From: Bacteroidota bacterium
Lineage (GTDB): Bacteria; Bacteroidota; Bacteroidia; UBA7662; JAIXUI01
NCBI GenBank assembly: GCA_027484125.1
Contig: JAIXUI010000148.1
Location: 1 to 64,000, forward strand
Direction: 5' to 3'
DNA: 64,000 nt
The first letter of the stretch is position 1. Each line of letters starts with the position of its first letter. Position numbers and translations under genes: made by a program. Below, in pieces: positions 20,185-56,469 of the stretch. Below the pieces are notes generated by a model. It was not told the origin of the DNA. It ran no database searches and saw only the letters and a list, made by a program, of their open reading frames with translations.

Positions 20185-20192
20185 CAAAGGTA
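20185..20192 (-). promoter_or_regulatory. Bacteroidota -7 element TACCTTTG for the DUF3822-rsmD-coaD operon
   Basis: Exact match to TAnnTTTG, 4 nt upstream of the ATG at 20180. Confidence 0.65.
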
Positions 20193-40916: not shown

Positions 40917-41879
40917 TTACATCTGCTGGATGGCCCACCAATATATCGGAAGTCCTAAGCTGATGTTGAATGGGAAAGTGATTCCCAAAGCCATGGGAAT
41001 ATACAAACCCGGATCTGCTTCAGGTGCAGCCAATCGCATGGCTGCCGGAACGGCAATGTATGAGGCACTAGCAGCTAGTATGCAGAACATGAACCTGTCC
41101 GGTAATGCTTGAGTTACTAATCCGCTGAGGTAAGCTGTAATTAAACCGTTGAATATCGGAATGCCAATCGCCATCAATGCGGCGAATGCCCCATATTGCT
41201 TAAAAGCCGAAAGTCTTTTAACAGTTACCATCCCCATTTCCAGTAAGAATATGGCAAGAAAGCCTTTGAAGATGTCAGTGGTAAATGGTTTAATTCCTTC
41301 AGCTTCTTTGGTATTGGCAATGAGTCCAATGATCAAACTTCCTAACACCATCAATACGCTGCTGTTGGTTAAAGCATGGTGTAGTTGATGATTAATAGAA
41401 GTTCCTTTTTCACTGCTATCTGAGTATTTTCTTAACAGCAACATCCCAACTATGATTGCTGGAGCTTCCATAAAGGCCATCACTGCCACCATATGTCCAC
41501 CAGGGTGTTGGCTAAAGTGCTCCAAAAAAGAAGTAGCTGCAACAAAAGTTACCGCACTTACGCTACCATAGGAGGCCGCAACGGCCGCAGCATTACTGAC
41601 CCCCAGCTTTCTTTTTCCAAGAAAAAAAGTGTACACCGGAACAACAGAAGAAAGCAACAACCCAAATCCTAAGCATGCTAAAGTGGTACTGTTGATGCCT
41701 TCATGCGCTAGTTCCTGACCTCCTTTGAACCCTATAGAAAACAACAGGTATAAACTAATGAATCTAGAAGTAGAGGCCGGAATCTCTAAATCACTTTTGA
41801 CCAAACTTGCTACCATCCCCAATACAAAAAATAAAAGGGTAGGCATGGTGAGGGTGCTAATAAGAAGGCCGGTGTCCAT
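40917..41879 (-). CDS. Sodium-dependent bicarbonate transport family permease (SbtA-like)
   Basis: About 10 hydrophobic segments; SIGFKGGQEL, ASYGSVSAVTFVAA, FLLEMGMV. Start set at ATG 41879 because the upstream GTG (41885) falls inside the -7 box. Confidence 0.85.
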   Translation of the reverse strand: MDTGLLISTLTMPTLLFFVLGMVASLVKSDLEIPASTSRFISLYLLFSIGFKGGQELAHEGINSTTLACLGFGLLLSSVVPVYTFFLGKRKLGVSNAAAVAASYGSVSAVTFVAATSFLEHFSQHPGGHMVAVMAFMEAPAIIVGMLLLRKYSDSSEKGTSINHQLHHALTNSSVLMVLGSLIIGLIANTKEAEGIKPFTTDIFKGFLAIFLLEMGMVTVKRLSAFKQYGAFAALMAIGIPIFNGLITAYLSGLVTQALPDRFMFCILAASASYIAVPAAMRLAAPEADPGLYIPMALGITFPFNISLGLPIYWWAIQQM

Positions 41880-41917
41880 ATTCACAAATGTATGAGGTGA
41901 ATATGGACGCCGGCCTT
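41865..41917. repeat. 21-bp inverted repeat (1 mismatch) with 11-nt loop spanning the sbtA start and promoter
   Basis: AAGGCCGGTGTCCATATTCAC (41865-41885) / aaatgtatgag / GTGAATATGGACGCCGGCCTT (41897-41917). Confidence 0.95.
41885..41892 (-). promoter_or_regulatory. -7 element TACATTTG of sbtA
   Basis: Exact TAnnTTTG match, 5 nt upstream of ATG 41879. Confidence 0.6.
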
Positions 41918-41941
41918 TCTAATTAAAATCTCAGGGAAGGA

Positions 41942-44878
41942 TTAGTATCCTAAGATTTGCTCAGCTGTAAGTTTAGTGACTTTACCATAACGTTGTAAAT
42001 CAGTGTCTTTTATCTTTTTGGGAGAAGCAATTACACATTTGGCCATCGGCTTTCCTGAAAAGCCATTCTCCCAAACAGGCTTCAAACTATCGAAGGATAA
42101 GGAGGGCAATTGCGTCATGACCCATGTTCTGGGGTCTTGGTTGAAGCCTTGTTTTTCCCAAGCTAACCAGCGTTCTAATCCCTGAATACCAGGATAACGC
42201 TCTGATCCTTTGATTTTTAATAGACTTTCTTTACAAGTATTCAATAAGTTGGTGTTGGTAGGGACATAGTTGATGAGTGAGTCCATGCCTTGGATGGCTT
42301 CATGGAATTTGTCAGCCTGACAGCCGATGTAAGCTTGGAAAGTAAAAGGATGATCCCAATACCTTGGTGAAGTGTAATCGGCATAAGTAGAATAAGCTAA
42401 GGCTTTCGATTCCCTTAATGTTTGGAATACTATGGAAGCCATTCCGCCACCAAAATACTGGTTGAATAGTTGAGCTTTTGCCAGAATTTCTTGGTTGAGT
42501 GAGGTTCCGCTTCTAACCCATTTGATTTCAGATTGAACCATATCAAAGGTGGTGAAATACACCTCTTCTTCTTTTATCGTTCTCGGTGTAAAAACATGAA
42601 GTTGCGCTGATTTTGATGGACTAAGGTTGTTGGTCCATGCTTTTGAAAGCATCGTTTGCATGGACAGAATATCCTCATTACTGCTGGCGGTGATGGTGAG
42701 TGAATCTTGGAGTAACGATTGTACCAAGTTTAATAAAAAGCGACTTTTTACTGCCTTTAGTGATTGGTTATCAGGGATAAATTTGGTTGGATTATCATCG
42801 CCATACAAAGCGTAGTCGGTCAGAGCTTCCAATAACTGGTCTTTGTCCTGCTTATTATTTTCTCTTTCCTCAAGTTCATTTGCTATCAATTGTTTGAAGG
42901 CGCTTTCATCGGGAATGACCTGTTTCACCCATTCCTGAAATAAAACGATACCTTCTTCCATTTTACTGGCTAACCCAGTAATACTTACGATTACTTCTCT
43001 TTCATCGCAACCCATTTGGTATTGAATTCCTTTAGAATAAAATTCTTGGCTGATGGCTTTGGCACTTTTAGTTGTAGTGCCGCAAAACTTGAAGTAATCC
43101 AATGCTAAAGGCAGCCATTTTTCGTGGTACTTTCCTTTTTTGAAATGTAAATTGATTCGTGCCGGAACAGGATTCTCTTCTTTTCTGATTAACATCCTAA
43201 TTGGGCCTGAGTGGACATCTTTAAAATCCGTTCCTGGTATAAGGTATTGGCTTTCAATTTTCGGCATTGGCATGGAATTAACTGACTTAAGAAAGTCACT
43301 TTGCGCAGTTGCATTCAAACTAACCGGAGTTATGGCAGGTTTCTCAACACTTTTTCCGGATGGGTCAATGCCTGTTTTCTTGTAAACGGTAACACTACCA
43401 CTCGAGAAGTACTTTTTGGCAAAATCAATCACTTGATCTCTTGAGACTTTCTTAAGCCTATCAATAAATCCAACTACAGCAGGGTAATTTTCCCCACGGC
43501 TGAGGATGAAACTCTCCATCAGCTCACTGGCTTTCCCTTGCTGCGATTCCCATTTCTCCAATTGTTCTCTTTCGGCATTAAGAATGATAGCTTTCATGAG
43601 TTGGTCGGAGAACTTTCCAGCTTTCAGCTTTTCAATTTCTTTTAGTAAAAGTGCTCTGGTAGCTTCTAACTTTTGGCCTTTTAAAGGCCTTCCAAGCAAG
43701 CTGATTACACTGTAATCCTTAAGAAACTCTGCATTGACGTTCGATTCTAATACAAGCTGAGGTTGGTTGAGGTTTTGATCCAATAACCCGGCTTGGCCGT
43801 TATAAAGAATTTTAGATACCATGTATGCAATAGGATAGCTCGGGTCGAGCACAGAAGGGATTCGGTACCCGATCATTACATTGGCCGGGTTAGGTCCGGT
43901 CACGGTTTTAATAATGGGTTTCAAGAGCGGTTTTTCCGGTTTTGGCTGATAGTCAATTTTAAAATCAGCGCTTGGAATCTGACCAATCGTATTGTCAATT
44001 TTCTCTATAACCTCCTCAAAATCAAAATCACCCACCATTACTAAAGCCATGTTAGCAGGTACATAAAATTTTTTGAAGTATTTTTTGATTTCTAGCAGTG
44101 AAGGATTTTTAAGATGCTCGATGGTTCCAATGGTGGTTTGCTGCCCATAATTGTGTGTAGGAAACAAGGCTTTCATCATCACTTCATAAGATTTCCAATC
44201 ATCTTCATCTAAAGAACGATTTTTCTCCTCATACACCGCTTCCAACTCAGTGTGGAAAATTCGAAAAACAGGCTTTGAAAAACGCTCAGCCTGCACTTTT
44301 AAAAACCGATCAATGGCATTGGAAGGAATATCCTCCAAGTAAACCGTTTGCTCATACCAAGTAAATGCGTTAGTACCTTTTGCACCCATGTCCGCCATCA
44401 TTTTATCGTATTCGTTTCCGATGGCCCATTGGGCAGCTAAGCCGGAAACACTATCGATTTCCCGGTATATTTTCTTTCTGGCCAACGGATTTTTGGTTTG
44501 ATTGTACTTTTCGAATAGCCGATCTATCTGATCCAAATAGGGTTTCTCCTTAGCATAATCCACCGTTCCGAATGATTCAGAACCTTTGAATAGCATGTGT
44601 TCCAGATAGTGAGCCAAGCCTGTATGGGTAGCAGGATCAGTATTTGAACCGGCACGGACTGGTATATAAGTGTAAATTCTTGGTTGAGTTACATCTTTGG
44701 CAAGAAATACTTTAAATCCATTTTTCAATTCATAGAATCTTGCCTGTAGTGGATCTGCTTCGTAGGTTTTCCACTTAAAGCGTCCTTGTTGATGTTCTTT
44801 CCATTGTGCATGGCTTTGGTGAGAAACACCAAAACTGATGACCAGTATTAAAGCAAACAGTATAACTCGCATGTACAA
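41942..44878 (-). CDS. M16-family (pitrilysin/insulinase-like) metallopeptidase
   Basis: GLAHYLEHMLFKGSESFG (HxxEH) with downstream AVYEEKNRSLDEDDWKSYEVM; two M16 halves. Confidence 0.94.
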   Translation of the reverse strand: MYMRVILFALILVISFGVSHQSHAQWKEHQQGRFKWKTYEADPLQARFYELKNGFKVFLAKDVTQPRIYTYIPVRAGSNTDPATHTGLAHYLEHMLFKGSESFGTVDYAKEKPYLDQIDRLFEKYNQTKNPLARKKIYREIDSVSGLAAQWAIGNEYDKMMADMGAKGTNAFTWYEQTVYLEDIPSNAIDRFLKVQAERFSKPVFRIFHTELEAVYEEKNRSLDEDDWKSYEVMMKALFPTHNYGQQTTIGTIEHLKNPSLLEIKKYFKKFYVPANMALVMVGDFDFEEVIEKIDNTIGQIPSADFKIDYQPKPEKPLLKPIIKTVTGPNPANVMIGYRIPSVLDPSYPIAYMVSKILYNGQAGLLDQNLNQPQLVLESNVNAEFLKDYSVISLLGRPLKGQKLEATRALLLKEIEKLKAGKFSDQLMKAIILNAEREQLEKWESQQGKASELMESFILSRGENYPAVVGFIDRLKKVSRDQVIDFAKKYFSSGSVTVYKKTGIDPSGKSVEKPAITPVSLNATAQSDFLKSVNSMPMPKIESQYLIPGTDFKDVHSGPIRMLIRKEENPVPARINLHFKKGKYHEKWLPLALDYFKFCGTTTKSAKAISQEFYSKGIQYQMGCDEREVIVSITGLASKMEEGIVLFQEWVKQVIPDESAFKQLIANELEERENNKQDKDQLLEALTDYALYGDDNPTKFIPDNQSLKAVKSRFLLNLVQSLLQDSLTITASSNEDILSMQTMLSKAWTNNLSPSKSAQLHVFTPRTIKEEEVYFTTFDMVQSEIKWVRSGTSLNQEILAKAQLFNQYFGGGMASIVFQTLRESKALAYSTYADYTSPRYWDHPFTFQAYIGCQADKFHEAIQGMDSLINYVPTNTNLLNTCKESLLKIKGSERYPGIQGLERWLAWEKQGFNQDPRTWVMTQLPSLSFDSLKPVWENGFSGKPMAKCVIASPKKIKDTDLQRYGKVTKLTAEQILGY

Positions 44879-56394: not shown

Positions 56395-56409
56395 ACCCCA
56401 CAGCACTAT

Positions 56410-56455
56410 CCAACAATAAAAAAAGCCCCGATTTCGGGGCTTTTTTTATTGTTGG
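56410..56455. terminator. Bidirectional intrinsic terminator, perfect 22-bp arms with 2-nt loop
   Basis: CCAACAATAAAAAAAGCCCCGA-tt-TCGGGGCTTTTTTTATTGTTGG between convergent trhO and the M43 protease gene; GC core flanked by A7/T7. Confidence 0.95.
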
Positions 56456-56469
56456 AGCATTTGAACTTC

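Follow-up and report, generated by a model that had tools for sequence, protein, structure and literature searches.

The question posed by this locus is how the start codon of a putative bicarbonate transporter gene came to be folded into one arm of a long inverted repeat around what appears to be its own promoter, and what this arrangement does to expression of the gene. Throughout, "the window" refers to the whole 64-kb stretch of DNA that was analyzed, and genome-wide counts come from a 1.76-Mb sample of the same genome. The minus-strand frame at 41879–40917 is an intact member of the SbtA family and, by family, a putative Na+-dependent bicarbonate transporter. Its product (320 aa from the ATG, 322 aa from a GTG at 41885) matches Pfam Sbt_1 (PF05982, E=4e-108) over residues 15–319 of 322, covering profile positions 1–307 of 308. 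The start codon is the ATG at 41877–41879 (minus strand; ATGGACACCGGCCTT begins at 41879), from which the N terminus aligns with those of relatives: Relatives of 67% identity align with SbtA from residue 1, and the N-terminal pattern M-D/N-x-x-x-L-I/L-S is common to them. A second in-frame ATG at codon 14 (41846) is not part of the hairpin described below and could rescue translation, giving a slightly shorter protein, a point that weighs against the account favored below. Upstream on the same strand is an M16-family peptidase gene (41942–44872, minus strand, identified by its Pfam M16 domains), 62 nt from the sbtA start, with TAGGTTTG standing 3 nt before its own ATG. Folding of the read-through RNA places a weak 10-bp hairpin across the M16 stop codon (41926–41958, minus strand), upstream of the inverted repeat and with no clear U-tract, and a search for intrinsic terminators between 41600 and 42200 returned 0 terminator-like sites.

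Read 5′ to 3′ on the minus strand, the quasi-palindrome has the order AAGGCCGGCGTCCATATTCAC - CTCATACATTT - GTGAATATGGACACCGGCCTT, corresponding to an upstream arm (41897–41917), an 11-nt loop (41886–41896, placed by inverted-repeat analysis and folding), and a gene-side arm (41865–41885) that holds the ATG and the first sbtA codons. The arms are 21 nt each, with 20 of 21 positions paired; the lone mismatch is A·C in sbtA-sense RNA and G·U in antisense RNA. On the plus strand the upstream arm reads GTGAATATGGACGCCGGCCTT, which repeats the sbtA start in inverted form and translates as (V/M)NMDAGLSN*. A sequence-only reading of this DNA had described two 21-bp arms with one G·U-compatible mismatch, an 11-nt loop, and a plus-strand inverted copy of the first sbtA codons, and the coordinates, arm length, mismatch, and loop it gave proved exact. 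Weaker similarity continues from the upstream arm to about 41925, and allowing one gap extends the match to 28 of 29 nt; this extension past 21 nt is suggestive only, as 8% of random flank pairs match it.

Near-perfect arms of 21 nt are far beyond chance. With matches scored +1 and mismatches –2, the sbtA repeat scores 18, while the maximum in five second-order Markov simulations of the window was at most 11. Just one other inverted repeat in the window scores this high, and it is stronger: a bidirectional terminator at 56409–56456, formed by a perfect 23-bp palindrome where two genes converge. Many pairs of convergent genes elsewhere in this genome are likewise separated by very long perfect palindromes. 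Other origins for such a repeat were considered and set aside. A dispersed or REP-like element is ruled out by a BLAST search of the region against its own genome, which returned the site itself, its reverse complement, and short matches at chance level. Rfam gave sub-threshold matches only, mostly to microRNA precursors, which any strong hairpin would be expected to hit. Nor is the upstream arm the remnant of a divergent gene: The plus-strand frame ends after nine codons, and the M16 coding sequence ends 15 nt beyond.

The loop holds most of a promoter box. TACATTTG, at 41892–41885 on the minus strand, is an exact match to the Bacteroidota –7 element TAnnTTTG that ends 5 nt before the ATG, and it comprises seven loop bases and the first base of the gene-side arm, just as had been claimed from the sequence alone (an exact –7 consensus in the loop plus one arm base). 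Across the window the motif occurs fewer times than expected by chance (37 copies versus 61 in shuffles). Upstream of 1237 genes, it piles up 3–9 nt before the start with a peak at 4 nt; 53 genes carry it at this distance, compared with roughly one or two at each position far upstream. Measured against internal in-frame ATGs, the enrichment at 3–9 nt is approximately 49-fold (50/1166 ATG starts versus 8/9194 internal codons), and 29 permuted motifs used as controls average 4 at starts, with a maximum of 10. Within the window, further example boxes are found at 20192–20185 and 44883–44876 (both minus strand). Because boxes at such a distance from the ATG are strongly enriched in this genome, the –7 box before sbtA is very probably a real promoter element, and the clustering before ATGs suggests that many mRNAs of this lineage of Bacteroidota have no leader. 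In Flavobacterium johnsoniae, transcription starts 4 or 5 nt downstream of the –7 box (PMC6847099). Given this published spacing and the position of the box, transcription of sbtA is predicted to start at 41879–41880 (minus strand), and therefore the mRNA would be leaderless and would lack the upstream arm.

Three observations bear on how this promoter should be read. No TTTG or TTG is found 17–23 nt upstream as a –33 element at sbtA; a –33 box is likewise undetectable at the other TAnnTTTG boxes near gene starts in this genome, and in F. johnsoniae the –33 box is weak (PMC6847099). Short leaders are a minority in the relatives that have been studied, with 87% of leaders exceeding 10 nt in F. 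johnsoniae (PMC6847099) and about 3.7% falling below 10 nt in Bacteroides thetaiotaomicron (PMC7366714). Finally, F. johnsoniae promoters are AT-rich around –28 (PMC6847099), whereas the upstream arm makes the –28 region of sbtA GC-rich, a feature of the sequence that counts against the explanation that we prefer below.

To describe how the choice of transcription start would affect the start codon, we folded model RNAs. The segment 41855–41927 folds at –37.5 kcal/mol on the sbtA strand (z = –9.4 versus shuffles) and at –41.1 kcal/mol on the opposite strand, also about nine s.d. below shuffles. Among 1249 gene starts, the start-region energy of sbtA is the lowest (–37.5 versus a mean of –11.9, s.d. 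5.4 kcal/mol); the runner-up (L148:7438) folds nearly as strongly and was set aside, as its start codon looks mis-called. In read-through RNAs with 81, 121, or 201 nt ahead of the start codon, the unpaired probability of the AUG was 0.00 in every case, and shuffling the upstream arm restored the open start state. The earlier proposal that read-through from the M16 gene would hide the start codon is thus borne out in silico. Its counterpart, that RNA from the loop promoter leaves the start codon free, holds in part. Such RNA would lack the upstream arm, and in RNAs beginning at 41879–41890 the A of the AUG is open (0.95–0.99), with U and G less so; in the leaderless RNA itself the unpaired probabilities are 0.99, 0.33, and 0.08 for A, U, and G. 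The last two bases are therefore predicted to be mostly paired, with more distant downstream sequence as their partner, which counts against the explanation preferred below. The earlier proposal also needs correcting in that the predicted RNA is leaderless, beyond simply having its start codon free. Full pairing of the AUG occurs only with the upstream arm, while U and G are partly paired even without it. We conclude that the physical logic of promoter-dependent hiding of the start codon holds in silico.

Comparison with relatives places the arrangement in this lineage. Among 57 sbtA relatives with a usable start (38–67% amino-acid identity), the hairpin is absent from all, exact inverted repeats near the start reaching 9 nt at most, and TAnnTTTG occurs within 60 nt upstream in just 2 of the 57, at 19 and 22 nt. 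The M16 gene adjoins sbtA in none of the relative loci fetched. Relatives of 54–67% identity are nearly all Bacteroidota, with a few records labeled otherwise, which places this uncultured organism in the same phylum. Searches at the order and class levels gave best matches of 62–65% (amino acid) and 65–70% (DNA) over long stretches; neither matched the start-site region, the class-wide DNA matches ending short of it. Because the first residues encoded by the gene-side arm are homologous to those of relatives, the alignment identifies the gene-side arm as the putative original and the upstream arm as the derived copy.

We propose, with moderate confidence, that the quasi-palindrome arose when a template switch duplicated the sbtA start in inverted orientation, leaving a leaderless promoter in the loop, and that it passively shields the gene from translation of read-through RNA. 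One template switch (fold-back) in the course of replication probably copied the 5′ end of sbtA, in inverted orientation, to a position upstream; the copy would have been 21 nt long, perhaps 28. The near-perfect inverted copy adjoins its source, as expected of a template switch, and template switching is documented to create perfect hairpin stems in one event (PMC8794818). The copy would have been placed upstream of an existing leaderless promoter, so that the presumably active TACATTTG box became the loop of the quasi-palindrome. Transcripts from this promoter, judged by its spacing, would begin at the ATG or one base earlier, making the hairpin impossible. RNA reading in from the M16 gene would, as computed, bury the AUG in a hairpin of about –37 kcal/mol, and should yield little SbtA through a block to translation. 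The net effect would be insulation, with the gene's own promoter, not read-through, supplying the mRNA from which SbtA is made, an effect that may be neutral or mildly useful. A fold-back mutation had been offered from the sequence as an alternative to a switch; it fits best among the alternatives named there, and a fold-back origin and an insulating effect can both hold.

We favor this insulating duplication over two readings with which it partly overlaps, through shared origin or geometry. The duplication could be a neutral scar with no effect on expression, either where read-through is negligible and the loop promoter dominant or where translation starts at Met14. The repeat is a one-off in this genome and specific to the lineage, the Pfam match begins at residue 15, and the codon-14 ATG is outside the stem, all of which suit a scar; the residues before Met14 are, however, conserved in relatives, which favors the upstream ATG, and we regard the scar as possible, if rather unlikely. 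The second overlapping reading, and the main proposal made from the sequence alone, is a selected promoter-choice translational switch for the bicarbonate transporter, in which the balance between regulated M16 read-through and initiation in the loop sets SbtA output. The geometry is right for it: The promoter lies in the loop, the start codon in the downstream arm, and a same-strand gene 62 nt upstream with no good terminator between, and in phage T4 genes e, soc, 49, and I-TevI the start site is similarly concealed in a helix. Against it, the 57 relatives hold no trace of the hairpin, and the M16 gene and sbtA have no functional link and are not neighbors in any relative locus fetched. The sole arm mismatch, as A·C, weakens the sense RNA and is tolerated, as G·U, only in the antisense RNA, a pattern that would argue mildly against selection on the sense hairpin. 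A regulated switch is thus unsupported, and we consider it doubtful.

A transcription terminator or 3′-end stabilizer of the M16 gene is improbable. Its stem is GC-rich, and many inverted repeats this strong in the genome sit between convergent genes in the form of A/T-tract terminators, yet here no U-tract follows the stem on either strand, the loop is unusually long, and the site overlaps a start codon rather than filling a gap between convergent genes. A dyad operator for a transcription factor, also raised in the sequence-only reading, is very improbable: A TTCAC-N11-GTGAA core is symmetrical around the –7 box, but this core occurs just four times in 1.76 Mb, the longer TATTCAC/GTGAATA dyad is found only here, and the arms are far longer than a typical operator. 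An assembly artifact is scarcely credible, even in a draft genome of 167 contigs, because the site is about 41.9 kb into its contig with intact, correctly oriented genes on both sides, a fold-back chimera would switch strand without returning, and the arms differ by one base.

In the genome as a whole, 68 inverted repeats score at least 14 in 1.76 Mb, the largest group (31) lying between convergent genes, with many terminator-like. In only two of the 68 does an arm contain the start codon: sbtA, with a score of 18, and a fumarase gene, with a score of 14. In this fumarase-like gene (L075:3636–3687), the start codon is part of a perfect 14-bp inverted repeat whose other arm lies upstream, and the 24-nt loop holds TAAATTCG, one mismatch from the –7 box. 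At a score of at least 10, start codons paired with upstream sequence number 8 genome-wide versus 1–3 in each of three controls, which hints at a slight excess of start-pairing inverted repeats, some of them shared between divergent genes. One divergent gene pair (L117:14921–15644) has mirrored starts, ATGAAAGCAAT, that form an inverted repeat across the shared promoter region. A general form of our proposal, that in leaderless-rich bacteria a gene can gain an insulator in a single evolutionary step through an inverted self-copy of its start around a loop promoter, so that translatable mRNA comes from its own promoter alone, with sbtA the clearest case and the fumarase gene a weaker one, is speculative and, in our view, unlikely to hold.

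If the proposed origin and effect are correct, a single copying error would have equipped a chromosomal gene with full promoter-choice control of its translation, of the sort known from phage T4. Bacteroidota lack Shine–Dalgarno signals, and in such a phylum the folding of the start codon is a principal means of controlling translation. The strong surplus of promoter boxes at a distance that suits leaderless mRNAs also matters for the annotation of gene starts in this lineage.

The closest known systems are those of phage T4. In gene e, the start is buried in the longer early transcripts but open in those made from late promoters that lie inside the structure, and the geometry lowers translation about 100-fold (PMC3014915). 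As in gene e and I-TevI, long upstream RNA at sbtA would fold the start into a helix, and a promoter inside the structure would give RNA without the 5′ strand; unlike them, sbtA is a bacterial chromosomal gene with a σABfr-type promoter, a predicted leaderless RNA, long arms (21 bp), no known timing signal, and no conservation seen. Transposase genes offer a second parallel, the IS10 transposase being protected from read-through by a 5′ hairpin. In IS200, a stem-loop sequesters the translation start region and inhibits tnpA translation (PMC12594629). The sbtA stem-loop would likewise sequester the translation start region, but the site is not mobile, has no transposase, and is single copy. Compared with Bacteroidota σABfr promoters, sbtA lacks the TTTG –33 and has TAnnTTTG as a –7 element at the enriched spacing. 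Finally, the site resembles quasipalindrome or template-switch mutations (PMC8794818) in that adjacent sequence is repeated in inverted orientation, nearly perfectly and across a short loop, and it differs from others of that kind in that the repeat, if such an event made it, involves a start codon and encloses a promoter box.
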